Shown here: positions 13,897-58,179 of the stretch, in pieces
Numbering within the stretch: the stretch's first letter is position 1
How the letters are laid out: every line of letters starts with the position of its first letter
Assembly (NCBI GenBank): GCA_030386875.1
Contig: CM059575.1
Span: 19,492,293 to 19,556,292 of the forward strand
DNA: 64,000 nucleotides
Direction: 5' to 3'
Source: Morinoia aosen
Lineage: Eukaryota > Arthropoda > Malacostraca > Amphipoda > Talitridae
Notes under the pieces: model-generated
What the model saw: only the letters and a program-made list of their open reading frames with translations
What the model was told of the DNA's origin: nothing
The model's database searches: none
Translations under genes and position numbers: made by a program

Positions 13897-14042
13897 TCAT
13901 GCTACAGTTTTCCTCATGAGTGTGGTGCACAGCGCCGATTTACCCTGTCTCTGGACCTGCACAGTGCACCACTGCACCGAGAACTGGCGCCGCAGCAGCA
14001 GCACCGCTCTCTGCTGCACCGCCTCCTGGTCGCAGGCTCGGT
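13897..14042 (-). CDS. ZnT-type transporter, terminal exon 8
   Basis: The exon encodes the last 48 residues of the C-terminal domain, counting the codon split by the intron, and ends at TGA (13899-13897). The peptide includes ACDQEAVQQRAVLLLRRQF and QWCTVQVQ, matching the final helix-strand unit of cation diffusion facilitators, where residues like 'VLxxARxLLxxxFxIxxxTVQVE' are typical. The acceptor is GGTTTCTTTGCAG, and the exon begins in phase 1, completing an Asp codon with the final G of exon 7. The protein ends with a Cys-Thr-Thr-rich tail. The overlapping + strand frames at 13855-14111 are shadows. Confidence 0.85.
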
Positions 14043-16129: not shown

Positions 16130-16277
16130 CTACGACCAGCTGGACGCAGGAGGCACAGACGGAGAAGTTTAGTGCCCAGACCTGGACGGACTGGACGCGC
16201 TGTACTCCCTGGATACTTTCCAGCTCCGCCTGGACTGCTGAGACGGACACGTGCGCTGGACAGCCTTCCTGCAGCAC
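16130..16277 (-). CDS. ZnT-type transporter, exon 7
   Basis: Encodes VLQEGCPAHVSVSAVQAELE, then SIQGVQRVQSVQVWALNF and a Cys-rich SVCASCVQLVV. This is the link from TM6 into the C-terminal domain: the family's 'LLExxPxxxxxxxLxxxLxxIxGVxxVHDLHVWxL' segment. The His residues of HDLHVW are replaced here (QSVQVW), so the usual C-terminal metal ligand at that site is missing. The acceptor GGCGGTCCAG gives phase 0, directly continuing LLRDTLL of exon 6. The donor after GTCGTAG is GTACTG in phase 1. The 61-105-codon frames on the + strand here are shadows. Confidence 0.9.
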
Positions 16278-19200
16278 CTGGACCGCCCAGCCAAGAGGCG
16301 CGTGGTGATAGAGAAATATCTTGCACAGCATTCACAGGGTGCATAGCACGCCCATTGCTTGCTCGTACATGCTGCACATGTCATTGTATGTATATATGGT
16401 GAGTATGGTGTTCACTTCAAATATGGTGTGCACGGTGCTTTGTAAATATATTGTATACTTATGCATCACACAGTATGCGCAGAATATGGTACGAATTGTG
16501 TGTGATGCATATTTGTATTGTACAGTTCACAGCACTTATTTGGAAGAGATGGTCTGCATGCATCTGATGAACAGTACACAATACATACTGTGCATTGTGC
16601 TCATAATACGCAGTGTACAGTATATGTATATGGCATAGGTACACGGAACGGATTAGGTAAATTACACCTATTTCATTCATTCAATATATTCCATGAATGG
16701 TGACGAACTATGAATTATGAGTGACGAACACTCACAATTGAGGCCACGTGATCACAGGAGAGGTTAGAGTTACAAAGATTTCCAGCCTTCTCTCGGCGAC
16801 TTCTTCAGAGTTTCAGTACAATTTGAATAATTTAAACATAGTTTCCTCACTTTACATTCACTGAGAATGAATTCCGTCTTTTACAAGTGTAACGTTATCT
16901 TGCTAATCACGCTAATGAAGGTGTCGGGTTCAATCTATGTGTAAAATTTGAATATCGTAAAGTTTAAGCAAAAACTTTTTGTTCTCATTTTCGTTCGTCA
17001 AGCGTAAAACCGAAAGATTAAACTCTGTTTTCTGCCTGGTGGCCTCGTGTGGTGTGAGGAATAGTCATTCACGTTTGCAATTGTGATCATGAAAGAAGAA
17101 ATAATACTTGCGCCCATTTTCATACATCTTCTGTGGGGAAGTGATGGATTATAACTCAAATTAATTTCTGTGAGCTTGTGTAAGATTATTTACGATAACC
17201 GAATGTTACCCAGTTCTGCAATCGTTCAGTTTACCTTACGCTGCACATAAAAGCCTTGTTTGCAGTCACTCCACCGGTTTTCTTGCTGTCGCTATAGCTA
17301 ATACTTTCTCTCTCAGACTCAAAAACTATGATAAAAATCGGCAAAATTAAGGTCTGATCCATATTGAATATGAAAATGGCCTAGAAAATTCAGTGTGAAT
17401 TTTCCTCTCGAAAGCTTCGATAAAAATAGATGCGGAACTGCTATCTAATTCACGCTGTCTCAAAGCTTTGCTCGTCCAAGCACATTCTCCATTCTATTTT
17501 AGCACACCACCTCGTCCAAGCATATTCTCCATTTTATTTTGGCACACCACCTCGTCCAAGCATATTCTCCATTCTATTTTGGCACACCACCTCGTCCAAG
17601 CATATTCTCCATTCTATTTTAGCACACCTCCTCGTCCAAGCATATTCTCCATTTTATTTTAGCACACCACCTCGTCCAAGCATATTCTCCATTTTATTTT
17701 GGCACACCACCTCGTCCAAGCATATTCTCCATTCTATTTTGGCACACCACCTCGTCCAAGCATATTCTCCATTTTATTTTGGCATACCACCTCGTCCAAG
17801 CATATTCTCCATTTTATTTTGGCACACCACCTCGTCCAAGCATATTCTCCATTCTATTTTGGCACACCACCTCGTCCAAGCATATTCTCCATTCTATTTT
17901 AGCACACCTCCTCGTCCAAGCATATTCTCCATTCTATTTTAGCACACCACCTCGTCCAAGCATATTCTCCATTCTATTTTAGCACACCTCCTCGTCCAAG
18001 CATATTCTCCATTCTATTTTAGCACACCTCCTCGTCCAAGCATATTCTCCATTCTATTTTAGCACACCACCTCGTCCAAGCATATTCTCCATTCTATTTT
18101 AGCACACCACCTCGTCCAAGCATATTCTCCATTCTATTTTAGCACACCACCTCGTCCAAGCATATTCTCCATTCTATTTTAGCACACCACCTCGTCCAAG
18201 CATATTCTCCATTCTATTTTAGCACACCACCTCGTCCAAGCATATTCTCCATTCTATTTTAGCACACCTCCTCGTCCAAGCATATTCTCAATTCTATTTT
18301 GGCACACCACCTCGTCCTAGCACATTCTCCATTCTATTTTAGCACACCACCTAGTCCAAGCACATTCTCCATTCTACTTTAGCACACCACCTTGTCCAAG
18401 CACATTCTCCATTCTATTTTAGCACACCACCTCGTCCAAGCACATTCTCCATTCTATTTTAGCACAACACCTCGTCCAAGCATATTCTCAATTCTATTTT
18501 GACACACCACCTCGAACAAACACATTCTCCATTCTATTTTGGCACACCACCTCGTCCAAACACATTCTCCATTCTATTTTGGCACACCAGCTCGTCCAAA
18601 CACATTCTCCATTCTATTTTGGCACACTACCTCGTCCAAGCACATCCTCCATTCTATTTTGGCACACCACCTCGTCCAAGCACATCCTCCATTCTATTTT
18701 GGCACACCACCTCGTCCAAGCACATTCTCCATTCTATTTTGGCACACCACCTCATCCAAGCATATTCTCCATTCTATTTTGGCACACCACCTCATCCAAG
18801 CATATTCTCCATTCCATTTTGGCACACCACCTCATCCAAGCATATTCTCCATTCTATTTTGGTACACCACTTCATCCAAGCATATTCTCCATTCTATTTT
18901 GGCACACCACCTCATCCAAGCATATTCTCCATTCTATTTTGCCATACCACCTCGTCCAAGCATATTCTCCATTCTATTTTGGCACACCCCCTCGTCCAAG
19001 CATATTCTCCATTCCATTTTGGCACACCACCTCATCCAAGCATATTCTCCATTTTATTTTGGCACACTACCTCGTTAAAACACATTCTCCATTCTATTTT
19101 AGCACACCACCTCGTCCAAACACATTCTCCATTCTATTTTAGCACACCACCTCGTCCAAGCACATTCTCCATCCTATTTTAGCACACCACCTAGTCCAAG

Positions 19201-19685
19201 CACATTCTCCGTTCTATTTTAGCACACCACCTCGTCCAAGCACATTCTCCATTCTATTTTAGCACACCACCTCGTCCAAGCACATTCTCCATTCTATTTT
19301 AGCACACCACCTCGTCCAAGCACATTCTCCATTCTATTTTAGCACACCACCTCGTCCAAGTACATTCTCCATTCTATTTTAGCACACCACCTCGTCCAAG
19401 CACATTCTCCATTCTATTTTAGCACACCACCTCGTCTAAGCACATTCTCCATTCAATTTTAGCATACCACCTCGTCCAAGCACATTCTCCATTCTATTTT
19501 AGCATACCACCTTGTCCAAGCACATTCTCCATTCAATTTTAGCACACCACCTCGTCCAAGCACATTCTCCATTCTATTTTAGCACACCACCTCGTCCAAG
19601 CACATTCTCCATTCTATTTTAGCATTCCACCTCGTCCAAGCACATTCTCCATTTTATCATAATTTATCACTTCACACCCACTCAC
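16278..19685 (-). other. Intron 6, largely a 40-bp minisatellite
   Basis: The donor is GTGAGT immediately after ...ACGCTGCTG, and the acceptor is GGTCCAG. The array fills the donor half. The acceptor half (16278-17470) is AT-rich, with a stretch at 16380-16640 rich in ATATGTATA and TGCATAC-like words but no clear repeat unit. Confidence 0.8.
17471..19657. repeat. 40-bp minisatellite, 55 units in strict register
   Basis: The + strand unit begins CTCGTCCAAGC and ends TTTTRGCACACCAC. Units start exactly every 40 bases from 17471 to 19631 without a single insertion or deletion. Substitutions are blockwise: CATATTCTCC dominates the left half and parts of the middle, CACATTCTCC the right, TTTTAGC versus TTTTGGC likewise. 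Open frames reported across it in three frames are repeat artefacts. On the coding strand a diverged first unit abuts the intron 6 donor. Confidence 0.97.
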
Positions 19686-19778
19686 CAGCAGCGTGTCCCT
19701 CAGCAGAGGCAGAGTGCAGGCAACCACAGCCCCCCCGCCGAGGATGGTCAGTACTGGGTCTAGCAGCTTCCAGGCCGG
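19686..19778 (-). CDS. ZnT-type transporter, exon 6 (TM6)
   Basis: Encodes 31 residues, PAWKLLDPVLTIL, then GGGAVVACTLPLLRDTLL. This is TM6 with its preceding short linker. The (K/E)xxDP(V/I)LT entry and the PLLxxTLxL exit are diagnostic of the cation diffusion facilitator family. The acceptor is CTCCTTACAG and the exon is phase 0 at both ends. The donor is a full-consensus GTGAGT. Base composition is much GC-richer than the surrounding intron, typical of exons in this window. Confidence 0.92.
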
Positions 19779-20912: not shown

Positions 20913-21174
20913 CTGCACCCTGATGACGAAAGCAGACACCAGCACGCACGCCGCCATGACGGCATCCCCGTACACGTGCAGGCGTGCGACACGCGCGAGG
21001 AAGGCAGGGTGCGACGCAACGCGCGTGCTCTCCAGGAAGGGCGTCGTCTGGTCAGAGACTTCCAAGTGGGACTTGCTGTTGGACTGCGAGTGTAGGGAGT
21101 TGCTGTAGGACTGCGAGTGTGGGGACTTGGTGCAGTTCAAGTCCCCGACGTTGCCTCGGAGAATTAGGACAATC
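20913..21174 (-). CDS. ZnT-type transporter, exon 5 (end of TM4, loop, TM5)
   Basis: The exon begins with one base of a split Ala codon, then IVLILRGN (end of TM4). A Ser/His/Asn-rich loop follows (SPHSQSYSNSLHSQSNSKSH), where other ZnT proteins carry a His-rich zinc-sensing loop. Then ARVARLHVYGDAVMAACVLV and SAFVIRVQ form TM5. HVYGD supplies the second HxxxD pair of the transport site. The acceptor CTGCCTCACAG gives exactly the phase required by exon 4, and the donor CAG/GTGAAT is phase 0. Overlapping + strand frames (20591-21301) are shadows. Confidence 0.9.
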
Positions 21175-21805: not shown

Positions 21806-23329
21806 TGGAATTAAGTTGCAGCTCCGATTCCACTGCAAAAATGCTTTCACAGCGGAAAGAAAAGGAACAATTTAATATGGATTATGGAAAGTATAGAATC
21901 TTTGCATGAGGTAATCTCATACAGGATACCATGCGCAAAGAAACTGAACATTATGACGGAAGAAGAAGAAAAGAAAAAGAAGTGATAGTGAAGAAGACAT
22001 GAACATTGAAAGAAGCAATGTGAGCGTTAAAAATAGAAGTCCCAAGGGCTTATCTATTCATAGAATGGTAACCTACAGTAAGTATTGGTTCATAGATCAC
22101 CTCATCCAGTGTAGGAATTCGAGGTTGAAATTAATGCAGTTATTGCCATTGACATTTAGCCGATCAATAATTTTCTAATTAGTACGATTAAATTAGAATT
22201 AACGTTTTTTCGTTGTTGTTTCAATGACCAGCTCAGCAATAAAGTTGTTACAACGAATAGCATTTATATAATTATAAAATGAACACTAACAAAGACGCTG
22301 AATGCAGCGCACTTTTACCGGGCAGTAACTAATCAAAACGACGTTAGCTTTTGCTGACTCAATTAAACTTTGTTTTGTTCGCATATAATTTGATGTCACT
22401 CATTCTCGGTGAGCTTCATCGGCGTGACAAACGGCGTGGAGGCCGGAGTCTACAAACTGAAGCGCTGAGCGCTACTTCTGCCGGGCGGAAAGGTAGCAGA
22501 AAACGAAATGTTTTCCAGAAAATTCCGTCACTTGTGTTATCATAAGGCATTCGAAAAATGGTAAATGTGCAAATTAACATCAGCTATTCCCGAATTACTT
22601 AAAACTTTAAAAGCACATTCGTACAATAAAATTTGTGGCCCTTGCATGACCCGAAGGAAAGTACCTAGCACTGGCCGCTGAAGTTCTGATTGCAGTTAGA
22701 TAATTCTCTGCGATTGTAGAGCTCACTGTTATAATACACTCAAACTTGAAAGAGCTAATTCAATCACACACACACGAGCATCAAGCTGAAATCGCATAAG
22801 GAATCATTCCTTTTTTATCCATCCAGTTAGGCATGCTCAAAAAAAACACATTTTATAAACTTTAAAATTCATATATATGAATATGAAAGGTTCTAGTGTT
22901 TCAATAGCTAATGTGCCGCTCAAGGTGGCTCTTAAAACTCAGAATGAATAACTTTTCTCGGATAATGGAACCTCCCGCGGCCACAAATCCAATTAAAGTA
23001 ACACAGGACTCCCCTTCCTGTAAGTTCCAAGTCCTAGTAGAAATTCGATTCCTGGAGTGCATGATCAACGGCAACTGTCGTGTCACTACTGTCAGGTGAG
23101 ACAGGCTGAATTTTCTTGGTAAGATCAATTGTTAGAGTTTTTCTAAAACTTCAGCGCAAATTTTCATATTTTACACTGATGGTCTGATTCATTGAAAAGA
23201 CGCACTCATTATTTTTCCTTCGCACACAATTGCCAGTAACGCCAGTTATTTTTCACAACACTGCATTCTGGAATTTTTATTTGGTCTCTTTAGGTCATAT
23301 GGTACTATTGCATTTGATCTACCGGTACT

Positions 23330-24161
23330 CAGATCCTTCACGCAAGATAACCAGCGAATGTGCCGGTCCCCAGATCACTCACGCAAGATAACCAACGATT
23401 GTCCCGGTCCCCAGATCACTCACGCAAGATAACCAGCGATTGTCCCGGTCCCCAGATCACTCACGCAAGATAACCAGCGAATGTGCCGGTCCCCAGATCA
23501 CTCACGCAAGATAACCAGCGATTGTCCCGGTCCCCAGATCACTCACGCAAGATAACCAGCGAATGTGCCAGCCCCCAGATCACTCACGCAAGATAACCAG
23601 CGATTGTCCCGGTCCCCAGATCACTCACGCAAGATAACCAGCGAATGTGCCGGTCCCCAGATCACTCACGCAAGATAACCAGCAAATGTGCCGGTCCCCA
23701 GATCACTCACGCAAGATAACCAGCGATTGTCCCGGTCCCCAGATCACTTACGCAAGATAACCAGCGAATGTGCCGGTCCCCAGATCACTCACGCAAGATA
23801 ACCAGCGAACGTGCCGGTCCCCAGATCACTCACGCAAGATAACCAGCAAATGTGCCGGTCCCCAGATCACTCACGCAAGATAACCAGCGATTGTCCCGGT
23901 CCCCAGATCACTTACGCAAGATAACCAGCGAATGTGCCGGTCCCCAGATCACTCACGCAAGATAACCATCGAATGTGCCGGTCTCCAGATCACTCACGCA
24001 AGATAACCAGCGAATGTGCCGGTCCCCAGATCACTCACGCAAGATAACCAGCGAATGTGCCGGTCCCCAGATCACTCACGAAAGATAACCAGCGAATGTG
24101 CCGGTCCCCAGATCACTCACGCAAGATAACCAGCGAATGTGCCGGTCCCCAGATCACTCAC
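23330..24161. repeat. 41-bp minisatellite containing the exon 4 splice donor, 21 junction copies
   Basis: The word CGCAAGATAACC recurs exactly every 41 bp from 23341 to 24161, twenty steps with no indel. The last copy is the real exon 4/intron 4 junction: on the coding strand each unit reads GGTTATCTTGC followed by GTGAGTGATCTGGGG. Donor hexamers in the 21 copies are GTGAGT (18), GTAAGT (2, near 23750 and 23914) and GTGAAG (1, the most distal). A four-unit block (23669-23792) is repeated at 23833-23956, marking a 164-bp segmental duplication. Confidence 0.96.
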
Positions 24162-24318
24162 GCAAGATAACCAGCGAAGCCGAGCAGAGCGGAGACGATC
24201 ATGAGGTCAGGATCGAGCTGCGCATATTGCAGACTCGCAACTCGAACAGCAGACTCGTACACGAGCATGGCTGTCACGACCCACATCAGCTGCAGCGTCG
24301 CCAGGCAGCCCACCACTT
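24162..24318 (-). CDS. ZnT-type transporter, exon 4 (TM3-TM4)
   Basis: Encodes EVVGCLATLQLMWVVTAMLV, YESAVRVASLQYAQLDPDLM and IVSALLGFAGYLA. The exon starts in phase 1 after YTFGYLRA of exon 3, restoring the family hallmark (F/Y)G(Y/W)xRAEV(x)G. TM3 is followed by a short connector and TM4. The acceptor is GAATCTGGATGCAG, weak in pyrimidines. The donor is GTGAGT in phase 2, matched by exon 5. The last 17 exon bases are the part copied into the adjoining 41-bp minisatellite. The + strand frame at 24098-24427 is a shadow. Confidence 0.92.
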
Positions 24319-26360: not shown

Positions 26361-26523
26361 CAGCACGGAGGTATCCGAAGGTGTAGCGCTCGGAGGGCAG
26401 TTTTTGAGCAGTTTTGGAGGCTGCCAGCACTGCCAGCAGCCCGAAGCTGTCACAGAGTAGGTGACTGCTGTCATACAGCACCGCAACGCTGCCAGACCAC
26501 CAGCTCCCGACTGCCTGCACCAA
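26361..26523 (-). CDS. ZnT-type transporter, exon 3 (end of TM1, TM2)
   Basis: Encodes LVQAVGSWWSGSVAVLYDSS, HLLCDSFGLLAVLAASKTAQ and KLPSERYTFGYLRA plus one base. This is the end of TM1, the conserved SGSxAxLxDxxH turn, and TM2 with HLLCD, the first HxxxD pair of the metal site. It closes on the (Y/F)TFGYxRA motif. Phase is 0 in and 1 out. The acceptor is TGGTGTGCCAG; a second AG nine bases further in would also be in frame and would drop three residues, so the exact start is slightly uncertain. Confidence 0.9.
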
Positions 26524-29500
26524 CTGGCACACCATACCCACAATTTTTACCACGAAATAACAATTTTGATCACGAAATGACAATTTTCACATCGAAATAA
26601 AAATTCTTACATCGAAATAATGTTCTCCACAGAACAACATTCTTTCCAAGAAATTACAATAATTACCACGAAATAACTACTATGCACTCCTCGTATGCAA
26701 ACTTGAAGCACTTTTAAGACTGGTCGTGGATGCATCAGGCTTAGAACAAGTTCAATTCTCTGCAGATGACAGTCCAATGTATCTGATCTGAATACAACGA
26801 TCGAAGTGAAACAACAAAGAATTGTCGCACGTTAGCCTTCAAAGAACAAACTATGTGAGAAAACGTCTTGGAACTGGTTTGAAGAAACGAATTTAGCTGT
26901 ATGATCGTAATGATCATTAAGATGTTTCGTCTGCGCAAAACTGCCCTGTATAAAGAAAATTAAATTAATCTTCCTTAATTCTGACAGCAAAGAAAATAAA
27001 GAAAATAGTTTCAATTTAACAGCCGCACAGACAGCCTAAGGATTCAGCTGACGAATGTGTAGAAGAAAATTTGCTATTCATAAAAGCATTTTATCTTATT
27101 AGCACATTGCGGTCCTAGATTCTAGAAATAAGAGTCGAAAGAAAACACACTCATCACAGTTACACTGCACTTAACCGCTCTTATCCTGCGGCTCATCACA
27201 TTTGCTCTATAGCTCTCCACAGTCACAACACAGCTCACCACAGCAGCATCACAGCTCACCCCAGCCACACCACAGCTCACCACAGCTCACCACAGCTCAC
27301 CCCAGTCACACCACAGCTCACCACAGCAGCACCACAACTCACCACAGTCACACAACAGCTCACCACAGCTCACCACAGTTGCACTGTAGCTCACCACAGT
27401 CACACCACAGCTCAACACAGTTGCACTGTAGCTCACCACAGTCACACCACAGCTCAACACAGTCACATTACAGCTCCCAACAGTTGCACTGTAGCTCACC
27501 ACAGCTCACCACAGCTCACCACAGCTCCCCACAGTCACACCACAGCTCACCACAGCAGCACCATAGCTCACCACAGCTCACCACAGTCACACCACAGCTC
27601 AACACAGTCACACCACAGCTCACCACAGTCACACCACAGCTCACCATAGCTCACCACAGTCACACCACAGCACACCACAGCAGCACCACAGCTCACCACA
27701 GCAGCACCACAGCTCACCACAGCTCACCACAGTCACACCACAGCTCAACACAGTCACACCACAGCTCACCACAGTCACACCACAGCTCACCACAGCAGCA
27801 CCACAGCTCCCCACAGTTGCACTGTAGCTCACATTAGCTCACCACAGCTCACCACAGCTCACCACAGTCACACCACAGCTCCCCACAGTTGCACTGTAGC
27901 TCACATTAGCTCACCACAGCTCACCACAGCTCACCACAGCTCACCACAGTCACAACACAGCTCACCACAGCAGCACCACAGCTCACCACAGCAGCCCCAC
28001 AGCTCACCACAGCTCACCACAGTCACAACACAGCTCACCACAGCAGCACCACAGCTCACCACAGCAGCCCCACAGCAGCACCACAGCTCACCACAGTCAC
28101 ATTACAGCTCCCAACAGTTGAACTGTAGCTCACCACAGCTCACCACAGCTCACCACAGCTCACCACAGTCACAACACAGCTCACCACAGCAGCACCACAG
28201 CTCACCACAGCAGCCCCACAGCAGCACCACAGCTCAACACAGTCACATTACAGCTCCCAACAGTTGCACTGTAGCTCACCACAGCTCACCACAGCTCACC
28301 ACAGCTCACCACAGCCGCACCGAAGCTCACCACAGTCACACCACAGCTCACCAAACTCACCACAGCCGCACCACAGCTCACCACAGTCACACCACAGCTC
28401 ACTAGAGTTGCACTGTAGCTCACCACAGCTCACCACAGTCACACCACAGCTCACCACAGTCACACCACAGCTCACCATAGCCGCACCACAGCTCACCACA
28501 GTCACACCACAGCTCACCACAGCCGCACCACAGCTCACTACAGTCACACCACAGCTCACCACAGTCACACCACAGCTCACCATAGCCGCATCACAGCTCC
28601 CCACAGTCACACCACAGCTCTCCAGAGTCACACCACAGCTCACCACAGCTGCCCCACAGCTCACCACAGTCACACCCCAGCTCACCATAGCTGCACCACA
28701 GCTCACCATAGCCGCACCACAACTCACCACAGTCACAGTCCAGCTCACCATAGCCTCAGCACAGATCACCGTAGCCGCACCACAGCTCACCATAGCCGCA
28801 CCACAGCTCACCATAGTCGCACCACAGCTCACCATAGCCGCACCACAGCTCACCACAGTCACACCCCATCTCACCACAGTCACACCCCAGCTCACCAGTC
28901 ACACCACAGCTCACCACAGCTCACCAGTCATACCACAGCTCACCACAGCTCACCACAGCTCACCAGACACACCACAGCTCACAACAGCTCACCACAGTCA
29001 CACCCCAGCTCACCATAGCCGCACCACAGCTCACCACAGTCACACCACAGCTCACCACAGTCACACCCCAGCTCACCATAGCCGCACCACAGCTCACCAC
29101 AGTCACACCACAGCTCACCACAGTCACACCCCAGCTCACCATAACCGCACCAGAGCTCACCATAGCCGCACCACAGCTCACCAGTCACAACACAGCTCAC
29201 CACAGTCACACCACAGCTCACCAGTCACACCACAACTCACCACAGCTCACCACAGTCACACCCCAGCTCACCACAGCCGCACCACAGCTCACCGTAGCCG
29301 CACCACAGCTCACCACAGTCACACCCCAGCTCACCATAGCCGCACCACAGCTTACCATAGCCGCATCACAGCTCACCAGTCACACCACAGCTCACCACAG
29401 CTCACCACAGCTCACCACAGCTCACCACAGTCACACCACAGCTCACCATAGCCGCATCACAGCTCACCAGTCACACCACAGCTCACCACTGCTCACATTA

Positions 29501-29652
29501 GCTCACCACAGTCACACCACAGCTCACCACAGCTCACCATAGTCACACCACTGCTTACCCCAGTCACACCACAGCCGCACCACAGCTCACCACAGTCCCA
29601 CTACACCTCACCACAGTTACACTTCAGTTCACCACAGCTCACCACAGCTCAC
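26524..29652 (-). other. Intron 2, dominated by a donor-derived array
   Basis: The donor is GTGAGC after GTTTGTG, and the acceptor is TGTGCCAG. A 2.4-kb short-unit array occupies the donor side. Near the acceptor (26540-26680) there is a small degenerate repeat of CGAAATRACAATT-like words. 26690-27200 is AT-rich and featureless. Confidence 0.75.
27213..29652. repeat. Compound short-unit minisatellite built on GTGAGCTGTG, about 2.4 kb
   Basis: On the coding strand the array is made of ten-base words GTGAGCTGTG, GTGTGACTGT and G(T/C)GGCTGTG in changing order (CAGCTCACCA, CAGTCACACC and CAGCCGCACC on the + strand). The first word is the exon 2 donor itself: TTTGTG, then GTGAGCTGTG, then GTGAGCTGTG. 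Longer blocks, such as those carrying GTTGCACTGTAGCTC (27388, 27423, 27485, 27817, 27888, 28262), recur, so multi-unit duplications have occurred. His/Ser/Gln-rich frames up to 395 codons over it are artefacts. Confidence 0.95.
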
Positions 29653-29775
29653 CACAAACACAGCTGCTACAGCTGCCGCCACAGCGATGCGTGAGGAGTC
29701 CGAGGCGCCCTCTGTGCTGTGCGTTGCTGTGTAGCCGGTGTGCTGCACAGCTGTAGAGCTGCACCTGCTGTACAC
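29653..29775 (-). CDS. ZnT-type transporter, probable exon 2 (N-terminal region, start of TM1)
   Basis: Read in the frame required by exon 3, this gives VYSRCSSTAVQHTGYTATHS, TEGASDSSRI and AVAAAVAAVFV, joining to LVQAVGS to form an unbroken TM1. The donor is GTGAGC in phase 0, as exon 3 needs. The left boundary is less certain. The phase-0 acceptor ACTGAGCAG before 29775 fits exon 1, but another AG inside (before CACACCGGC) would also be in phase. The base composition is exon-like (GC-rich) between two repeat arrays. The 44-bp array begins 15 bases upstream of the proposed acceptor. Confidence 0.65.
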
Positions 29776-29789
29776 CTGCTCAGTTGAGT

Positions 29790-30103
29790 GCAGTACAGGG
29801 CAGATGTACGTGAGTGCAGATGTACAATTGAATGTAGTACAGGGCAGATGTGCGTGAGTGCAGATGTACAATTGAATGTAGTACAGGGCAGATGTGCGTG
29901 AGTGCAGATGTACAATTGAATGTAGTACAGGGCAGATGTACGTGAGTGCAGATGTACAATTGAATGTAGTACAGGGCAGATGTGCGTGAGTGCAGATGTA
30001 CAATTGAATGCAGCACAAGACAGATGTACGTGAGTGCAGATGTACAATTGAGTGCAATACAGGACAGATGTACGTGAGTGCAGATGTACAATTGAGTGCA
30101 GTA
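29790..30103. repeat. 44-bp minisatellite, about 7 copies
   Basis: Units contain GTGAGTGCAGATGTACAATT, GARTGYAGTAC and AGGGCAGATGTRC, every 44 bp. The array sits at the acceptor end of intron 1, directly next to exon 2. GTGAGTGCAG-like words here are on the + strand, opposite to the gene. Cys/His-rich - strand frames of 100-150 codons are artefacts. Confidence 0.95.
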
Positions 30104-31560
30104 CTAAGCTGACGGGCGTGCGCAACTCGGCAAGAGCTTTATTTAATTTCGGACGAGGCTTAAATAAAGTCCATTTTTTATTCTAATAATCATGTACTCG
30201 TACGTTTATTGCTCGAACAACAAGCCTTTCAATTGAAGTGGAAACAATCAAAGATTTAAGAACAATTGAGGAACTCTCGTACCTATATTGGTCGTATATC
30301 TACTGCATTAACTTATTGATTCAAGCGAATATACTGTTTGGCTAGTATAGTGATCAATAATTAACCATAAATACCGTGGAGATAAATTCACTGGCTTGAA
30401 CCCACAAATGAATAAATTATACACTCTCTATACTTCAATGGAGTGTGACGTGCAGTTTACAATTATTTCAAGCCTCTTAGATTTTTTTAATTTGCTGTTG
30501 ACTTCAAGTTCTCATTCTCCGTATTCCAAAGAAATCTAGACTGGTAAGTGGATTTAAATTAACGGTGCGCTCTCTTTTGTTATCTAAAAAATTTGAGTTC
30601 CATTCAGGTACAGTTCAAATTGATGTATTGTATGAAATAATACTAAAAGTACGCAAAACTGATCCTTCATGCTTCTTGTTAGCATGTTAATAGCTAAAAA
30701 TAAACTTTAATTACAAGAATAATATGATGCGCGAGACATCAAATATCTTAGAAATTAAATATTTAGACATTAAAGAGCGTGCCAAGTTAGTAATTAGAAT
30801 GAAGATTAAACTAATTTACGAAGGGGAAATAAAATGATAACATTAATTATGCCATAAAGCTTACAATTTTACTTGAATACTACTACTCTCAAGAATAAAG
30901 AGTGAGCAGATCTCAAACACAAGTGCACTGGATAGATTGAAAAGCTGCTAATGCATTTCCGAGCGGCGTCCCGTATTTTAAGAGAAACAATTTATTAACA
31001 TTTCTTATAGCGCACAACTAAAAATTTATAATTTTATTTTCAAACGTTAACATTCTTTTTGGGCGTGTAGTTCCATTTGAACATCCACGATGTATTAGCC
31101 TTTAAGTATCTTTAATTCTATTTTTTCCACTAGTAGTAGGAATCAAGTTTTTATAAATATTTTATTTTAACATTTTTGCAGTTAAAATGCAGTTAAAAAT
31201 TGAGAGTTAAAAAACTGTAGGAAGACTTATATACTGGAAGGCCCACTACTGAAGATTTGGATAAGAAAGACAATAGAGACGCTCAAAGAATATATTTTTC
31301 CCATTGAGAAACTATAAAACATGCCAGACGTGATTGTTCAAATTACTAAAAAATGTAAACGTAGGAATAGAACAGCAAAATTTTGAGCGTAGGCTAATTT
31401 CAAATGAAGTATTTGCGATTCAAACAAATTCCTGCTCATTTCCTAACTCAAAATTGTTCCAGGTCGATGCGTCTTGAATTATTTGAACGCAATTTTCCTA
31501 GTTTAGAACAAACTCTGCCAGCAAGCCTCGTCAACATGAGCCTCTCTTGATGTTCCAGCT

Positions 31561-31866: not shown

Positions 31867-34812
31867 CTACAGTTGTTGCGCCCTTCGGTGGGCGAGCTGC
31901 TGCAGCAAACTGTTGCCTGCAGCAGGCTGATAGTAGTGAGGCAGCGGTGGCTTGTCCGGAACCGTCCTCAAAAATTCATCCAGTTGCCTCTTAAATGCCT
32001 CCAGCGACCCGACATGCTCTCTCAGGGTGCGGGGAAGACAATTAAAAAGTTTTGGGCCCATGACCGAAAACGACTGCTCATGCCTGCTCCTCACACTTGC
32101 TGGGGCTCTTTTATTCAGGGTCGGGACCACACACAATGTACCGAACCGAATGTGCTGTTTCGTCCGAAGCCCAATTCTGCCGTCCGTGAAGTTCGGAACA
32201 AGCCCCGTCAGCATCTTCCATGTATATATTACTATATACCTCTCCCTACGCCGTTGGAGGGAGTACATCCGATAATGCTCAAGTCGGCTCCAATAATCCA
32301 GTCGACGAGCACCTTCAATCCTGGCAGTGAAGGACCTCTGAATACTCTCCAGCCGCACTATATCTCCCCGCCCACTTGGGCTCCAAAGTTGGCAGCAATA
32401 CTCTGCCAGGGGAAGAATTAGTGCTCTGTACAGGGTCAACATTAGGGTCGGCTCTCTGGTCCTAAAGGTCCTCCACACCCACCCCATCTGCCGCCTGCAT
32501 CTCTTCACCACACCACTGATGTGCTCGCCGAAGCCTCCTCCCTCCTCCACAACAACCCCCAAGTCTCGAAGAGAAAGCTTTCTCTCAATCGTGAGGTTAC
32601 CCGCTGTCGTGTGGGAGAATGCTTCGTCTGGATGCCCGCCGTACCTAATGAGCTCAAATTTAGCCTCATTGAATTTCATGTTATTTTCCTCCGCCCAGAC
32701 ATAGATCCTCTCCAAATCCTCCTGCAAGTCGACGCAATCCTCTGAGCTGGCCACCTCCTTAATTATCCTGGTGTCATCAGCAAAAGAGGACGCCCGCGCA
32801 TGTTGCAGGTTTAGATCAATGTTTGCGATGTGGATCAAAAACAGTAGCGGGCCCAGCACTGAGCCTTGCGGGACCCCGCTTGCAACCACCGACTCAGACG
32901 AGAGGCACCCATCCACGACCACCATCTGCCTCCGATCCGTCAAGAAACTGGCCAACCATCTCAGCAACGTTCCTCCAATGTGGGAAGCCCGCAGCTTTCG
33001 CAGAAGGACACCATGGTCCACCTTATCAAAGGCTTTGGCGAAGTCCAAGTACACGACATCGACTGCCCGTCCACTGCCCAGCTCTTCGGTTATTAAGCGG
33101 TGATGCTCTAGAAGCTGCGAGAGGCATGACCTTCCTCTTCTGAAGCCATGTTGATGCTCGTTGAAGAGGTCCGCACTCTGCAAAAGACGCACCAATCTCC
33201 TGGCTACCACCCTCTCAAAGACCTTAATAACATGTGACGTCAGTACTACTGGTCGATAATTCATTGGGGCGTGCTTTTCTCCGCCCTTGAATATCGGTGT
33301 CACTAAACCACGCTTCAGTGCTTGCGGGACGTTGCCTTCGCTCATCGACGACCACCACAGCCGAAAGAGTGGCATCTTTAGTTCCTCGCAGCAATTTCGC
33401 AGCAATACGGCAGGGATTCCATCCGGTCCCGGCGCCGACGTCGGGGACAGTTCTTTTATAGAGACCACCAAATCGTCCTCCGTAAAGCAGATGTCCTCCA
33501 ACAGTCCCGGTTCACGGATCCCTCGCAGCAGCTCATCCAAGTGTGACCTCAGGCTCTGGAGTCTCGGTACGCTGAATACGGACTCATATTGCTTTCTCAA
33601 GACCTCACACTTTTCGTCTGGAGCACTGACAATACTATCACCGATGCGGAACGGTCCAACCGTAGACCTTGTCAGGGTTCTCCTTTTGGCGAATGCATAG
33701 AAGTACTTAGGGTTTCTTTGGATTGCCTCCACGGCCAAATCCTCCTCCCTCAAAGCTTCCTCCTCATGCGAACGCTGGAGCAATACCTCAAGGTCACGCA
33801 CCATTGCAACAATTCTCTGCTTTGTCTCTGGAGTGACTGGTTCTGATAGTCGCTTTAAGAGCCGTCTCCTCTTGCGCATCAAAGTACGGCGATCACTAGG
33901 AACAGATCTACCTTTATACTTCCTTCTCCTCGGCACGTACTTTGGGCAGACGTCAGCCAGCACCCCACAGAACTGCTGATACACTTCCTCTGCCACATCT
34001 GCCCCCATCCGGTCCTCCCAGTGTAACTCCAACAGGTGCCTCCTCAACCCAGTCCAATCAACACGTTCGCTCATGAAGTTCAGTGAGTCAAGCGCACACC
34101 GCCCACTTTGGCGCTCCTCACTACGAGACTTCGAGCCTAGGTCAACGGCGGCCAGGATTAACCGGTGGTCCGACAGGATAGTGTCTTCGACAGCTAGTCC
34201 TCTCACCAGGTCCCCGTCATTTGTCAGGAATAGGTCCAGTACACTGTCCAACCGCGTAGGCACAGTGACATACTGCTCCAGGGCAAACTCCTCCATAAAG
34301 CTCCAAAGAGCAGCCGCCTGTGCTCTGGTATCATTGGCACCTCCTTCCATCCTACCAGTGGACCAGCACATCCGAGGGAAGTTGAAGTCTCCCAACACCA
34401 CCATGGTTGGGGTGGGAGTACCCAGCTCCTCCAACCTCCCAACAAGATGGCCAAGCACAGTATCGAAGTTGGTCCATTCACATGTAGGAGGTCTGTAAAT
34501 CACAGCCAGGACCAGCCTCCTACTGTCGAACCACAACGCAAGGTGCTCCACCACTCCATTAGAACCGCCAGTGAGGACAAAAGCTTCAGCGGCTATATCC
34601 TCCCTTACAAACACCGCAACTCCGCCCTTCTTTCGGCCTGGAAGTCGGTCCGAACTAAATATCTGGAAACCCTCCATGTAGACCTCAGCGTCAAGCACGT
34701 CCACGTTCAGATGGGTTTCCACCAAAGCAATCAACACAGCACCCGCGAGAAGAGCTCTTTCCCTGAGCATTCCGACCTTGAACTTCTTCTGACGGGTGCT
34801 CAAGCCCTCCAC
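31867..34812 (-). CDS. LINE ORF2: endonuclease-reverse transcriptase
   Basis: 981 codons open from a GTG at 34812; the frame is open further upstream (III-CNVEGL), the usual start of the endonuclease domain, and no ATG lies in frame there. The apurinic endonuclease (about 1-225) has ET (E32), GDFN (D142) and SDH (214-216). The reverse transcriptase (about 450-720) has YLDFAKAF (D590), GVPQGSVLGPLLF (646-658) and FADD (677-680). The C-terminal region ends at TAG/TGA-side 31867 with no cysteine-rich finger obvious. The catalytic residues that I can check are all present. Translation probably depends on reinitiation or stop-proximal coupling after ORF1, whose stop lies about 36 bases upstream. 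Confidence 0.93.
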   Translation of the reverse strand: MEGLSTRQKKFKVGMLRERALLAGAVLIALVETHLNVDVLDAEVYMEGFQIFSSDRLPGRKKGGVAVFVREDIAAEAFVLTGGSNGVVEHLALWFDSRRLVLAVIYRPPTCEWTNFDTVLGHLVGRLEELGTPTPTMVVLGDFNFPRMCWSTGRMEGGANDTRAQAAALWSFMEEFALEQYVTVPTRLDSVLDLFLTNDGDLVRGLAVEDTILSDHRLILAAVDLGSKSRSEERQSGRCALDSLNFMSERVDWTGLRRHLLELHWEDRMGADVAEEVYQQFCGVLADVCPKYVPRRRKYKGRSVPSDRRTLMRKRRRLLKRLSEPVTPETKQRIVAMVRDLEVLLQRSHEEEALREEDLAVEAIQRNPKYFYAFAKRRTLTRSTVGPFRIGDSIVSAPDEKCEVLRKQYESVFSVPRLQSLRSHLDELLRGIREPGLLEDICFTEDDLVVSIKELSPTSAPGPDGIPAVLLRNCCEELKMPLFRLWWSSMSEGNVPQALKRGLVTPIFKGGEKHAPMNYRPVVLTSHVIKVFERVVARRLVRLLQSADLFNEHQHGFRRGRSCLSQLLEHHRLITEELGSGRAVDVVYLDFAKAFDKVDHGVLLRKLRASHIGGTLLRWLASFLTDRRQMVVVDGCLSSESVVASGVPQGSVLGPLLFLIHIANIDLNLQHARASSFADDTRIIKEVASSEDCVDLQEDLERIYVWAEENNMKFNEAKFELIRYGGHPDEAFSHTTAGNLTIERKLSLRDLGVVVEEGGGFGEHISGVVKRCRRQMGWVWRTFRTREPTLMLTLYRALILPLAEYCCQLWSPSGRGDIVRLESIQRSFTARIEGARRLDYWSRLEHYRMYSLQRRRERYIVIYTWKMLTGLVPNFTDGRIGLRTKQHIRFGTLCVVPTLNKRAPASVRSRHEQSFSVMGPKLFNCLPRTLREHVGSLEAFKRQLDEFLRTVPDKPPLPHYYQPAAGNSLLQQLAHRRAQQL

Positions 34813-34847
34813 ATTGCATATTATTATAGTGCAATGAGTTTCCTTGC

Positions 34848-35855
34848 TTACCAGACTCGCTTGCAGGTGCAGGTTCGGGCCTCTGTTACCAGAGGACGAT
34901 GCTCCTCTCGCCCACTCAGTACTCTCTCCAAAAGCTCCAGGATTGCCTGCACCTGTCTCCGTAACTCTAAAAAAGGAGTCGCATTCTCCAAATTTAGAAG
35001 ATCAGTCCTGTCCGACCCAAGGCTCGGCACAGTCACTGCAGGCGGAGGAACTCCAAAAACCTCAACTCCGCGGCCGCTCACGGCCTCTCCAAAAGAGATT
35101 CTCGCAGGTGGAGGCGTGCCAACAGCATTCGGAGTCACCTCACTACCCACCGCGTTGGCAGCTTCTCTGACTTTTATTCCCGCCGGATGGAGGAACTTGC
35201 ACTGTTTCCTGGGGCAATTCAGACCTTCCACCGCTTTCCAACACAAGGGTGGATGGAAGTACTCACATTTCCGGCCTTTGCTGCATCCCTCCTCCAGTTT
35301 TCCCCCAAACTTCGCGAATTTACAACACACCTTGGGGTGTGAGAACTCACAACCTTCCCCCCTTCTGCCATGCTTACACTCTCTCCTCAGGAAGTGCCTA
35401 CACACTTTAGGTCTAGCTTTAGAGAGCCCAGTGGCCGGCAAAGCCTTAGCTGGTTCAGGCACAAACACCGCCGCCGTAACCTCCCCTTCCGGCACCATCA
35501 GCGAATCATCCGACACAGATCCAGATCCATGGCCCGGTGTCAGAGGAGCAGGAGGACACTCGACGACGACGGATGGGGCGGGAGTCCCAGAACCGGCATT
35601 CCCCGCCCTCAGCTGCCTCTCAATTCGGGAAGTCATGACGACAAACTCCTCGCCGCACCTTTTCACGACACACGTCTCACACTTGAATTTGCTGCGGGAG
35701 GTCTCCAACCATACCAGGTGGTTCACTGGCAGGCCGGAACACCTCAAGTGGACAAAGACTCCGCAGTCCGCACACTTGAGGGCCGATCCCCCCAACTCCT
35801 CCCCGCACAGCCCACAGCACGTCCCACTCGGGACAGAGTGATACATGGCACTCAT
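34848..35855 (-). CDS. LINE ORF1: PHD finger plus three CCCH zinc fingers
   Basis: 335 residues. The N-terminus is a canonical C4HC3 PHD finger: C14-C17, C28-C31, H36-C39, C59-C62. A Pro/Gly/Ser/Val-rich linker (about 85-147) follows. Then come three CCCH-type fingers: C152-x7-C160-x8-C169-x3-H173; C178-x12-C191-x5-C197-x3-H201; C205-x8-C214-x4-C219-x3-H223. The C-terminal part (about 280-320) is Leu/Glu-rich (LELRRQVQAILELLERVL), a likely coiled coil for multimerisation. PHD-containing ORF1 proteins are known in CR1-like LINEs. The triple CCCH block presumably binds the element RNA. The ORF ends TAA just before the ORF2 frame. Confidence 0.9.
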   Translation of the reverse strand: MSAMYHSVPSGTCCGLCGEELGGSALKCADCGVFVHLRCSGLPVNHLVWLETSRSKFKCETCVVKRCGEEFVVMTSRIERQLRAGNAGSGTPAPSVVVECPPAPLTPGHGSGSVSDDSLMVPEGEVTAAVFVPEPAKALPATGLSKARPKVCRHFLRRECKHGRRGEGCEFSHPKVCCKFAKFGGKLEEGCSKGRKCEYFHPPLCWKAVEGLNCPRKQCKFLHPAGIKVREAANAVGSEVTPNAVGTPPPARISFGEAVSGRGVEVFGVPPPAVTVPSLGSDRTDLLNLENATPFLELRRQVQAILELLERVLSGREEHRPLVTEARTCTCKRVW

Positions 35856-39254: not shown

Positions 39255-39308
39255 CTCCTCGCTCTCATCCGAGTCCGCACCGGACTCTTCGGTAACCTCG
39301 GGCGCCAT
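39255..39308 (-). CDS. ZnT-type transporter, first coding exon 1
   Basis: ATG at 39308 opens MAPEVTEESGADSDESEE, an acidic 18-residue cytosolic N-terminus, followed by a full-consensus GAG/GTGAGC donor in phase 0. The start context (A at -3, G at +4) is good, and the upstream GC-rich 60 bases look like a 5' UTR. Its assignment to this gene rests on strand, phase, position and absence of any other partner. No transcript evidence is available, and the 9.5-kb distance leaves room for doubt. Confidence 0.6.
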
Positions 39309-45730: not shown

Positions 45731-46130
45731 TTTGTCTCAGGCTGATCATTTCGTCTCTCATCAAAAGCTGCGCGAGGAAATCCCTAAATTTAAAAATTTC
45801 TCCCCAAATTTTTATAAAGTTCTCTCCAATTCTTATCTCAATGAAGGTCTCACAAAGTCTTCTTCTGACGTTCGGAGATATCTTAAACTGTTATATTTCG
45901 ATACGAAGTCTTTCTGCATGGGATAAAATCTTCAAAGGAATTTAAAACAATAAATCCTTGTTGGAACGGTGAAGTATATTTTCAAAATTTGTTACTGAGT
46001 TACATGTGGAATGAAATATTTGCTTGTGTGAAATGAATTTTTTGCTTGTGTGGAATGAATTTTTGTGTGAAATTGTCTTTTCGTTTGTTTGAAATTGATT
46101 TTCGTTAGTGTAAAATGTATTTTCGTATGC

Positions 46131-47864
46131 GTGAAATTGAGTTTCGTTAGTGTAAAATTGAATATCGTTAGTGTCAAATTGAATATCGTTAGTGTGAAAT
46201 TGAATATCGTTAGTGTGAAATTGAATACCGTTAGTGTCAAATTGAATATCGTTAGTGTCAAATTGAATATCGTTAGTGTCAAATTGAATATCGTTAGTGT
46301 GAAATTGAATATCGTTAGTGTCAAATTGAATATCGTTAGTGTGAAATTGAATACCGTTAGTGTCAAATTGAATTTCGTTAGTGTGAATTTGAATATCGTT
46401 AGTGTGAAATTGAATATCGTTAGTGTGAAATTGAATTTCGTTAGTGTGAATTTGAATATCGTTAGTGTGAAATTGAATATCGTTAGTGTCAAATTGAATA
46501 TCGTTAGTGTGAAATTGAATACCGTTAGTGTCAAATTGAATATCGTTAGTGTCAAATTGAATATCGTTAGTGTCAAATTGAATATCGTTAGTGTGAAATT
46601 GAATATCGTTAGTGTCAAATTGAATATCGTTAGTGTCAAATTGAATATCGTTAGTGTGAAATTGAATACCGTTAGTGTCAAATTGAATATCGTTAGTGTC
46701 AAATTGAATATCGTTAGTGTGAAATTGAATATCGTTAGTGTGAAATTGAATATCGTTAGTGTGAAATTGAATATCGTTAGTGTGAAATTGAATATCGTTA
46801 GTGTGAAATTGAATTTCGTTAGTGTGAATTTGAATATCGTTAGTGTCAAATTGAATATCGTTAGTGTGAAATTGAATACCGTTAGTGTCAAATTGAATAT
46901 CGTTAGTGTCGAATTGAATATCGTTAGTGGCAAATTGAATATCGTTAGTGTCAAATTGAATATCGTTAGTGTGAATTTGAATATCGTTAGTGCGAAATTG
47001 AATATCGTTAGTGTCAAATTGAATATCGTTAGTGTGAAATTGAATACCGTTAGTGTGAAATTGAATATCGTTAGTGTGAAATTGAATATCGTTAGTGTAA
47101 AATTGGATATCGTTAGTGTGAAATTGAATATCGTTAGTGTGAAATTGAATATCGTTAGTGTGAAATTGAATACCGTTAGTGTCAAATTGAATATCGTTAG
47201 TGTGAAATTGAATATCGTTGGTGTGAAATTGAATATCGTTAGTGTGTGTCGAATTGAATATCGTTAGTGGCAAATTGAATATCGTTAGTGTCAAATTGAA
47301 TATCGTTAGTGTGAAATTGAATACCGTTAGTGTCAAATTGAATATCGTTAGTGTCGAATTGAATATCGTTAGTGGCAAATTGAATATCGTTAGTGTCAAA
47401 TTGAATATCGTTAGTGTGAATTTGAATATCGTTAGTGCGAAATTGAATATCGTTAGTGTCAAATTGAATATCGTTAGTGTGAAATTGAATACCGTTAGTG
47501 TGAAATTGAATATCGTTAGTGTGAAATTGAATATCGTTAGTGTGAAATTGGATATCGTTAGTGTGAAATTGAATATCGTTAGTGTGAAATTGAATATCGT
47601 TAGTGTGTAATTGAATACCGTTAGTGTCAAATTGAATATCGTTAGTGTGAAACTGAATACCGTTAGTGTGAAATTGGATATCGTTAGTGTGAAATTGAAT
47701 ATCGTTAGGGTGAAATTGAATATCGTTAGTGTGAAATTGAATACCGTTAGTGTCAAATTGAATATCGTTAGTGTGAAATTGAATATCGTTAGTGTCAAAT
47801 TGAATATCGTTTGTGTCAAATTGAATATCGTTAGTGTCAAATTGAATATCGTTAGTGTCAAATT
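46131..47864. repeat. 21-bp minisatellite, left block, about 82 copies
   Basis: The + strand unit is TTGAATATCGTTAGTGT followed by SAAA, period 21, so it encodes a 7-residue repeat without stops in several frames. This explains the 390-640-codon frames on both strands. 46020-46130 holds increasingly decayed copies with AATTTTTTGCTTGTG-like words. Internal duplication is visible: the rare variant GTGGCAAATTG recurs at about 46928, 47268 and 47373. The block ends mid-unit at the LINE junction. Confidence 0.97.
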
Positions 47865-57055: not shown

Positions 57056-58179
57056 AAATTGAATATCGTTAGTGTGAAATTGGATATCGTTAGTGTGAAA
57101 TTGAATATCGTTAGTGTGAAATTGAATATCGTTAGTGTCAAATTGAATATCGTTAGTGTGAAATTGAATACCGTTAGTGTCAAATTGAATATCGTTAGTG
57201 TCAAATTGAATATCGTTAGTGTGAAATTGAATATCGTTAGTGTGAAATTGAATATCGTTAGTGTCAAATTGAATATCGTTAGTGTCAAATTGAATATCGT
57301 TAGTGTGAAATTGAATACCGTTAGTGTCAAATTGAATATCGTTAGTGTCAAATTGAATATCGTTAGTGTGAAATTGAATATCGTTAGTGTGAAATTGAAT
57401 ATCGTTAGTGTCAAATTGAATATCGTTAGCGTCAAATTGAATATCGTTAGTGTGAAATTGAATATCGTTAGTGTCAAATTGAATATCGTTAGTGTCAAAT
57501 TGAATATCGTTAGTGTCAAATTGAATATCGTTAGTGTCAAATTGAATATCGTTAGTGTCAAATTGAATATCGTTAGTGTCAAATTGAATATCGTTAGTGT
57601 CAAATTGAATATCGTTAGTGTGAAATTGAATATCGTTAGTGTCAAATTGAATATCGTTAGTGTCAAATTGAATATCGTTAGTGTGAAATTGAATATCGTT
57701 AGTGTCAAATTGAATATCGTTAGTGTCAAATTGAATATCGTTAGTGTCAAATTGAATATCGTTAGTGTCAAATTGAATATCGTTAGTGTCAAATTGAATA
57801 TCGTTAGTGTCAAATTGAATATCGTTAGTGTCAAATTGAATATCGTTAGTGTGAAATTGAATATCGTTAGTGTGAAATTGAATATCGTTAGTGTCAAATT
57901 GAATATCGTTAGCGTCAAATTGAATATCGTTAGTGTGAAATTGAATATCGTTAGTGTCAAATTGAATATCGTTAGTGTCAAATTGAATATCGTTAGTGTC
58001 AAATTGAATACCGTTAGTGTCAAATTGAATATCGTTAGTGTCAAATTGAATATCGTTAGTGTCAAATTGAATATCGTTAGTGTCAAATTGAATATCGTTA
58101 GTGTCAAATTGAATATCGTTAGTGTCATATTGAATATCGTTAGTGTGAAATTGAATATCGTTAGTGTCAAATTGAATTT
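57056..58179. repeat. 21-bp minisatellite, right block, about 54 copies
   Basis: Same unit and orientation as 46131-47864, but more homogeneous: most units differ only by GTGTSAAA (G or C). The low divergence suggests recent amplification. The block breaks at TTGAATTTCCCACTAATT. The 400-codon frames on both strands are artefacts of the stop-free 21-mer. Confidence 0.97.

Follow-up and report, generated by a model that had tools for sequence, protein, structure and literature searches.

The closest described relatives of the repeat analyzed here are the mirages of amphioxus, minisatellite-like duplications of intron-exon boundaries that occur on both the 5' and the 3' side (PMC3087553). The units of the Adh3 mirages measure 10-72 bp and those in globin genes up to about 160 bp; regular splicing was reported from RT-PCR, the repeats were found to be unstable in length, and they may contribute to the gain of introns (PMC3087553). 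Further mirages are reported from PGBD5 and troponin C (PMC3902484). The human gene IFI6 (6-16) carries a minisatellite with multiple splice donors (Turri et al. 1995, as cited in PMC4526556), two downstream units of which are used, so that three mRNA species are formed (PMC4526556). Internal tandem repeats at exon-intron boundaries are reported for human genes in segmental duplications (PMC2812944), and for Drosophila the tandem duplication of proto-splice sites is reported as a source of new introns (PMC2891723).

The array that we describe, at the junction of exon 4 and intron 4 of a zinc-transporter gene that is probably from an amphipod crustacean, is of the mirage kind; what is apparently new is the arthropod case and the frequency at which such arrays were met in a sample of the genome. 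A literature search of titles and abstract openings, of partial coverage, found no junction-spanning minisatellite in an arthropod. As in the amphioxus mirages, the repeated unit crosses an exon-intron boundary (17 plus 24 bases, 21 times), its 41 bp lie within the reported size range, a junction test finds similar arrays at 5' and 3' boundaries of several genes, and many units retain splice signals. The host, in contrast, is probably a crustacean and not a cephalochordate, and the 21 copies are joined by the 2.4 kb of repeats that border exon 2. That splicing proceeds normally and that lengths are unstable are observations made in amphioxus, whereas the exon 4 array is known from its sequence.

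IFI6 is similar in having several donors supplied by a minisatellite at the end of an exon. The two differ in that distal use at exon 4 yields a stop, whereas the use of downstream units in IFI6 would permit longer isoforms. With the repeats in segmental duplications the array shares minisatellite expansion at an exon-intron boundary and the possible creation of new splice sites; those repeats were defined by variation among paralogues and supported by RNA, unlike the single locus described here from DNA. The tandem duplication of a stretch that bears a splice site is also the step reported for Drosophila, from which exon 4 differs in showing no new intron: the copies sit in an existing one.

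The gene

The window, meaning the whole stretch of 64,000 nucleotides that was analyzed, occupies positions 19492293-19556292 of contig C20 in a 1.99-Gb assembly of 29 contigs. On its minus strand we modeled a gene of 8 exons, with a CDS of 1137 nt (378 codons) that runs from an ATG at 39308 to a stop codon ending at 13897. The exons lie at 39255..39308 (exon 1), 29653..29775 (exon 2), 26361..26523 (exon 3), 24162..24318 (exon 4), 20913..21174 (exon 5), 19686..19778 (exon 6), 16130..16268 (exon 7) and 13897..14042 (exon 8, which includes the stop codon). Phases fit at all seven introns and the ORF is complete. The joined exon pieces match Pfam Cation_efflux with E 2.3e-27, and relatives in the PDB, among 11 matched sequences, include SLC30A4, SLC30A8 and SLC30A3. 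The two best homologues among 32 hits are amphipod proteins, one from Trinorchestia longiramus, with 70% identity across 70% of the query, and one from Hyalella azteca (49% across 71%); all others are far weaker, at E 1.9e-15 and above. An amphipod is accordingly the most likely source of the window. The join of exons 4 and 5 reads ...GFAGYLAIVLILRG, in agreement with ...GFAGYLALAVILRS in the Trinorchestia homologue, which is continuous across the join. Judged by homology and reading frame, the gene is an intact SLC30A (ZnT)-type zinc transporter.

Some further features of the locus may be recorded here. Exon 5 holds an in-frame 27-bp repeat (21068-21129), at the place in the protein where other ZnTs have a loop with a His-rich stretch. 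Intron 1 contains, at 31867-35855 on the minus strand, an element resembling a non-LTR retrotransposon. Its 1044-aa frame is of reverse-transcriptase type, and a frame of 335 aa upstream of it has motifs that resemble CCCH fingers; these names were assigned by eye. Elsewhere in the assembly there are intronless cation-efflux frames, six of them near-full on a 198-position model (four on contig C27, one on C23 and one on C26) and a further, partial one on C27, all of which may represent bacterial contamination placed in the assembly.

The array at the exon 4 junction

Exon 4, 157 nt long, was set from the gene model and homology. Counted on the minus strand from its junction, contiguous 41-bp copies extend from 24178 down to 23318, and there are 21 of them (array 23318..24178). 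TRF reports 41 bp x 20.9 copies over 23322-24178, with 94% matches and 0% indels. The last base of the exon is 24162, which splits the unit into 17 exon and 24 intron bases. Beyond copy 21, 27 of the following 41 nt are mismatched, and on the other side the stretch of exon ahead of copy 1, also 41 nt, has an identity of only 22% with the unit. In a genome-wide pattern search with a 41-mer of the array, the 8 exact matches listed all fall within the array itself. The anatomy given in the preliminary description, an indel-free unit of 17 exon and 24 intron bases repeated up to the real junction, is thereby borne out, as is its count of 20 consensus donors in 21 copies: 18 copies carry GTGAGT, including copy 1 (24156..24161, minus strand), two carry GTAAGT, and the distal copy 21, the most divergent of all with 6 of its 41 bases unlike those of copy 2, carries GTGAAG.

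Written from the exon outward, the unit types follow the order AABACDEFGAEFHIJIFIKLM, i.e. 13 types among the 21 copies. The pair E-F recurs, as would be expected from block duplication. Mean identity between copies is nearly independent of their lag (0.94-0.96), so that no clear higher-order period is apparent.

It had also been implied that the donor positions vary less than the rest of the unit. In the first 20 copies, 1 of the 6 donor positions is variable compared with 10 of all 41 (hypergeometric P = 0.54), and for all 21 copies the figures are 3 of 6 and 15 of 41 (P = 0.88); this expectation thus found no support.

Donor strength and the consequence of distal splicing

Pairing with the U1 5' end gives copy 1 a duplex energy of -6.6 kcal/mol; copies 2-20 come to -6.5 or -6.6, and copy 21 to -3.0. 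The donors of the array are therefore nearly equal to each other and not strong. The other six donors of the gene range from -5.5 to -10.3 kcal/mol, with that of exon 2 at -8.1, and the exon 4 donor is the second-weakest of the seven, which makes competition between donors a real issue. The earlier estimate of up to 21 equivalent sites for U1 holds for about 20 copies by duplex energy and fails for the weaker copy 21.

When exon 4 is extended to the donor of copy 2, 3 or 4, the translation ends in ...GFAGYLA followed by a stop, at an in-frame TGA. Copies beyond the fourth must carry the identical stop, since the first 41 nt are included in them too, and the claim that any distal donor adds an in-frame TGA stands. 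As 41 leaves a remainder of 2 when divided by 3, and the TGA comes after the first junction, the downstream units do not code for a longer isoform.

Other arrays in the same gene

A second array of the junction type lies at the exon 2 donor, TTTGTG/GTGAGC (the slash marks the junction), which is situated at its edge. It covers 27211..29656 on the minus strand (2446 bp) and is made of units of about 10 bp, GTGGTGAGCT. The motif GTRAG occurs in it 119 times in the sense orientation and 0 times in antisense, and there are 78 exact copies of GTGGTGAGC; the span of the gene outside the listed arrays has 37 GTRAG in 15.9 kb. Of 82 donor-like sites that exon 2 might use, 80 lead to a stop, the exceptions being the real donor and the site at +10.

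When the 30 nt around each donor of this gene were compared with the DNA downstream in the junction test described below, exon 2 scored 28/30 and exon 4 30/30. The donors of exons 1, 3, 5, 6 and 7 showed no downstream repeat, with best scores of 14-19/30 beside 14-16 for the reversed controls. The intron after exon 6 holds a 40-bp array (17471-19657) that starts 28 nt inside it, and the junction is not copied. Ahead of exon 2, a 44-bp x 7.3 array in intron 1 (29784..30104, minus strand) ends 8 nt before the acceptor, for which the best upstream match is 20/30 compared with 15 for the reversed control.

Proximity of arrays to donors was assessed by random placement within the gene of the 8 arrays with a score of at least 100, excluding the internal repeat of exon 5. 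With limits of 0, 10 and 30 bp, 2, 2 and 3 of the 7 donors have an array that close (P = 0.0048, 0.009 and 0.0014), and a mean of 0.25 is expected at 30 bp. For donors and acceptors together, 4 are found near arrays against 0.43 expected, a value reached in 0 of 5000 trials. Some cause linked to donors could underlie this pattern, though the wider sample shows none.

Junction repeats in myosin and kinesin genes

The sample consisted of two gene families. It comprised 79 myosin-head exon matches, all of which lie in 30 fetched regions, and 30 fetched from 126 kinesin matches. The kinesin exons were picked by hand against near-duplicate loci, with their DNA unseen and the open-frame column in view. 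Splice sites were set automatically near the end of each match, without one-by-one checking. In the junction test, the 30 nt of each junction (donor -10..+20, acceptor -20..+10) were compared with the adjoining 550 nt and a score of at least 22/30 was taken as a repeat. One of the 109 donors was untestable. Among the remaining 108, 9 reached the threshold, compared with 1 for the reversed and 0 for the reverse-complement control (one-sided Fisher P = 0.009 against reversed); for acceptors the counts were 7, 0 and 0 of 109 (P = 0.007). Myosin alone, with 600 nt and at least 20/30, gave 10 of 78 donors and 3 of 79 acceptors, and both controls were 0 for each.

Two of the donor matches were discarded. 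For myosin L016 (25/30) the true end of the exon seems to be farther upstream, so that the donor looks wrongly chosen, and kinesin L049 is of low complexity, with 26 for the reversed control versus 27. Seven remain (L026, L028, L045, L048, L053, L061 and L065), which leaves between 14 and 16 of the 217 exon ends in the sample with a repeat by this test. Six donor cases were read in the sequence; the acceptor matches rest on the automated test.

The cases are diverse. A myosin exon on contig C11 ends TACCTCAACCAG/GTTAGTGGCC, also read as CTCAACCAG/GTTAGTGGCC, within a 42-bp array (11.6 copies by TRF) that is in frame and has its first stop in the sixth unit. On C9 a myosin gene has a 90-bp double of an exon end and, at the next donor, a 37-bp x 3.9 array. 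A 62-bp x 26.5 myosin array has TTCCAG/GT in common with the exon end and scores 20/30 in the junction test. On C17 a 62-bp x 4 array, found outside the 79 myosin matches, includes 43 exon bases, and its later copies are identical to the first at 60-61 of 62 positions. Kinesin genes provide a 66 bp x 11 array on C1 (...NVIMALGQK/GTGGGG), a 68 bp x 4 array at a junction on C21 and, on C11, an exon tail that recurs in a 133-bp repeat. The 42-bp myosin array of C11 and the 66-bp kinesin array of C1 both have a unit divisible by 3 and no early stop.

One kinesin pair of this genome, L061 and L069, has arrays of equal length and is identical at 1248 of 1250 bases. More generally, the kinesin matches on C2, C3, C16 and C20 include equal-scoring pairs located about 0.1-4 Mb apart on one contig, which are either segmental duplications or unpurged haplotypes.

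A second test asked for recurrence of exon tails (at least 16/20, 77 exons). Tails recurred in 8 of 77 and heads in 8 of 77, with 4 (downstream) and 5 (upstream) for exon middles and 1 and 1 for the reversed controls. A single myosin locus, L015, which looks like tandem exon cassettes, is the source of 5 of the 8 tails and 5 of the 8 heads, and because it dominates the counts the test is ambiguous. This myosin gene (C1:35642500-35652400) has six tandem matches that start at about model positions 376-378 and that resemble known cassettes of mutually exclusive exons.

Array density near splice sites

Random placement in the zinc-transporter gene had hinted that donors are hot spots for arrays, a notion that we rejected on the coverage seen in the sample, which falls toward the junctions. 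Beyond donors, arrays cover 7.5% of positions at 0-14 nt, 10.2% at 15-29, 12.7% at 30-59, 17.7% at 60-119, 16.7% at 120-239 and 9.7% at 240-399; beyond acceptors the values for the same bins are 5.9, 8.1, 9.0, 13.0, 11.9 and 6.6%. A steady decay with distance was absent from the myosin loci. Because arrays thin out toward junctions, splice sites are not hot spots in this sample. The thinning looks like what selection would cause, and the arrays that do cross a junction look like the tolerated tail of minisatellite growth in introns.

TRF arrays reach at least 5 nt into the exon match from the intron side at 4 donors out of 30 in kinesin and 2 out of 79 in myosin genes; for acceptors the counts are 2 of 30 and 1 of 79. 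Exon-side coverage at -45..-16 is 2.8% for donors versus 0.2% for acceptors, and the ends spanned by arrays number 6 versus 3 of 109; a deeper bite at donors than at acceptors was considered and set aside, the numbers being too few to lean on. Arrays with GTRAG showed no signal of sense-strand bias (7 sense and 5 antisense among 74 arrays).

Origin and use of the array

We favor, with a probability of roughly three in four, the reading that the exon 4 array is a tandem duplication of the mirage type in which the proximal donor is used and the other copies are passive decoys, a recurrent by-product of minisatellite growth. A tandem duplication with one breakpoint in exon 4, 17 nt before the junction, and the other in intron 4, 24 nt after it, would have copied the 5' splice site, and unequal exchange or slippage would then have enlarged the array to 21 copies and homogenized it in blocks. 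Copies added downstream of a donor can probably be tolerated, since they leave the first exon end and its donor unchanged. The origin by duplication of the junction, already proposed in the preliminary description, is backed by the anatomy and by the parallels in exon 2 and in myosin and kinesin genes elsewhere in this genome, where arrayed junctions look like a recurring by-product of the growth of intron minisatellites. The exon-proximal donor is most likely the one used in splicing of exon 4, because the conserved protein comes from that copy only. The 20 downstream copies would be passive decoys, whose occasional use would give a TGA-terminated transcript that is probably degraded by NMD.

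A priori, a different choice of donor might have been expected. Between two comparable donors the intron-proximal one is reportedly favored, for reasons that are described as not known (PMC6002489), and applied to exon 4 this preference would pick a distal copy, which counts against proximal use. If distal copies did win, most splicing of the gene would be faulty, or the gene would be turning into a pseudogene. We regard this as highly improbable, given an ORF that is complete over 8 exons with fitting phases and the close similarity of the product to an amphipod homologue. The preliminary description had left two possibilities, a strong choice of the proximal site or a splicing sink, and the former is the likelier of the two. 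As a regulated sink, the array would divert a controlled share of transcripts through distal donors to NMD and so tune the output of the zinc transporter. The near-equality of the donors and the TGA that follows any distal use fit this scheme, as does the stop reached from 80 of the 82 sites at exon 2. The donor positions, however, are without extra conservation, similar arrays recur in unrelated myosin and kinesin genes, and coverage by arrays falls toward junctions, as expected of tolerated by-products. The units of some myosin and kinesin arrays are moreover multiples of 3, so that a stop is not common to junction arrays, which again argues against a sink. The analysis yielded no positive evidence for this proposal, and we consider it unlikely.

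The copies might also serve in the recruitment of U1. Extra donors might attract U1 snRNPs that shield the long intron from premature polyadenylation or that help to define an exon whose own donor, at -6.6 kcal/mol, is weak. Adding a downstream donor to test pre-mRNAs increased recruitment of 3' splice-site factors (PMC8724738). On the other hand, copies are found also at exon 2, with its stronger donor (-8.1), and at acceptors elsewhere, and the donor positions bear no mark of selection; such a function is very unlikely. Tandem arrays are, finally, prone to errors of assembly, and the repeat might be an artefact. That explanation is scarcely credible, in view of the ordered way in which the copies differ (13 unit types among 21), the 81 Mb spanned by the contig and the presence of junction arrays on several other contigs.

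Implications

Exon 4 ends in a series of 20 near-identical donors, of which just the first leads to the normal protein, and so lends itself to testing exon-proximal versus intron-proximal choice. Because the preference for intron-proximal donors is, as the source presents it, unexplained (PMC6002489), data on donor usage at this array would be informative. The sampled frequency suggests that the genome contains many graded versions of the same arrangement, at donors as well as acceptors. It is conceivable, though we put this forward tentatively, that splice junctions are arrayed at about one exon end in fifteen, providing thousands of natural multi-donor or multi-acceptor constructs whose copy numbers would run from 2 to above 100; that a strong exon-proximal rule is needed to cope with them; and that arrays with units divisible by 3 and without an early stop, such as the 42-bp myosin and 66-bp kinesin arrays, could now and then feed in-frame protein repeats, with array length as an evolvable dial. 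Junction arrays may also be raw material for intron gain, as has been proposed for the amphioxus mirages (PMC3087553).

Two minor observations concern other repeats. The Trinorchestia homologue contains a stretch of PRCWLRAPG x 7 that begins where the exon 7 donor of the present gene falls, and the public gene model may here be frame-shifted and have taken an array for coding sequence; the stretch is only suggestive of an exon 7 array in that species, coming from a protein sequence whose frame into exon 8 misfits the simple use of a distal donor. Within the window itself (1-64000), TRF arrays with a period of at least 8 make up 14,635 of the 64,000 bases, compared with 8% in the fetched myosin loci. 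Two of these arrays, both with a 21-bp period and 9 kb apart (46065-47864 and 57056-58177), share a nearly identical unit, GTGTGAAATTGAATATCGTTA, and it seems that one minisatellite was copied to a second place.
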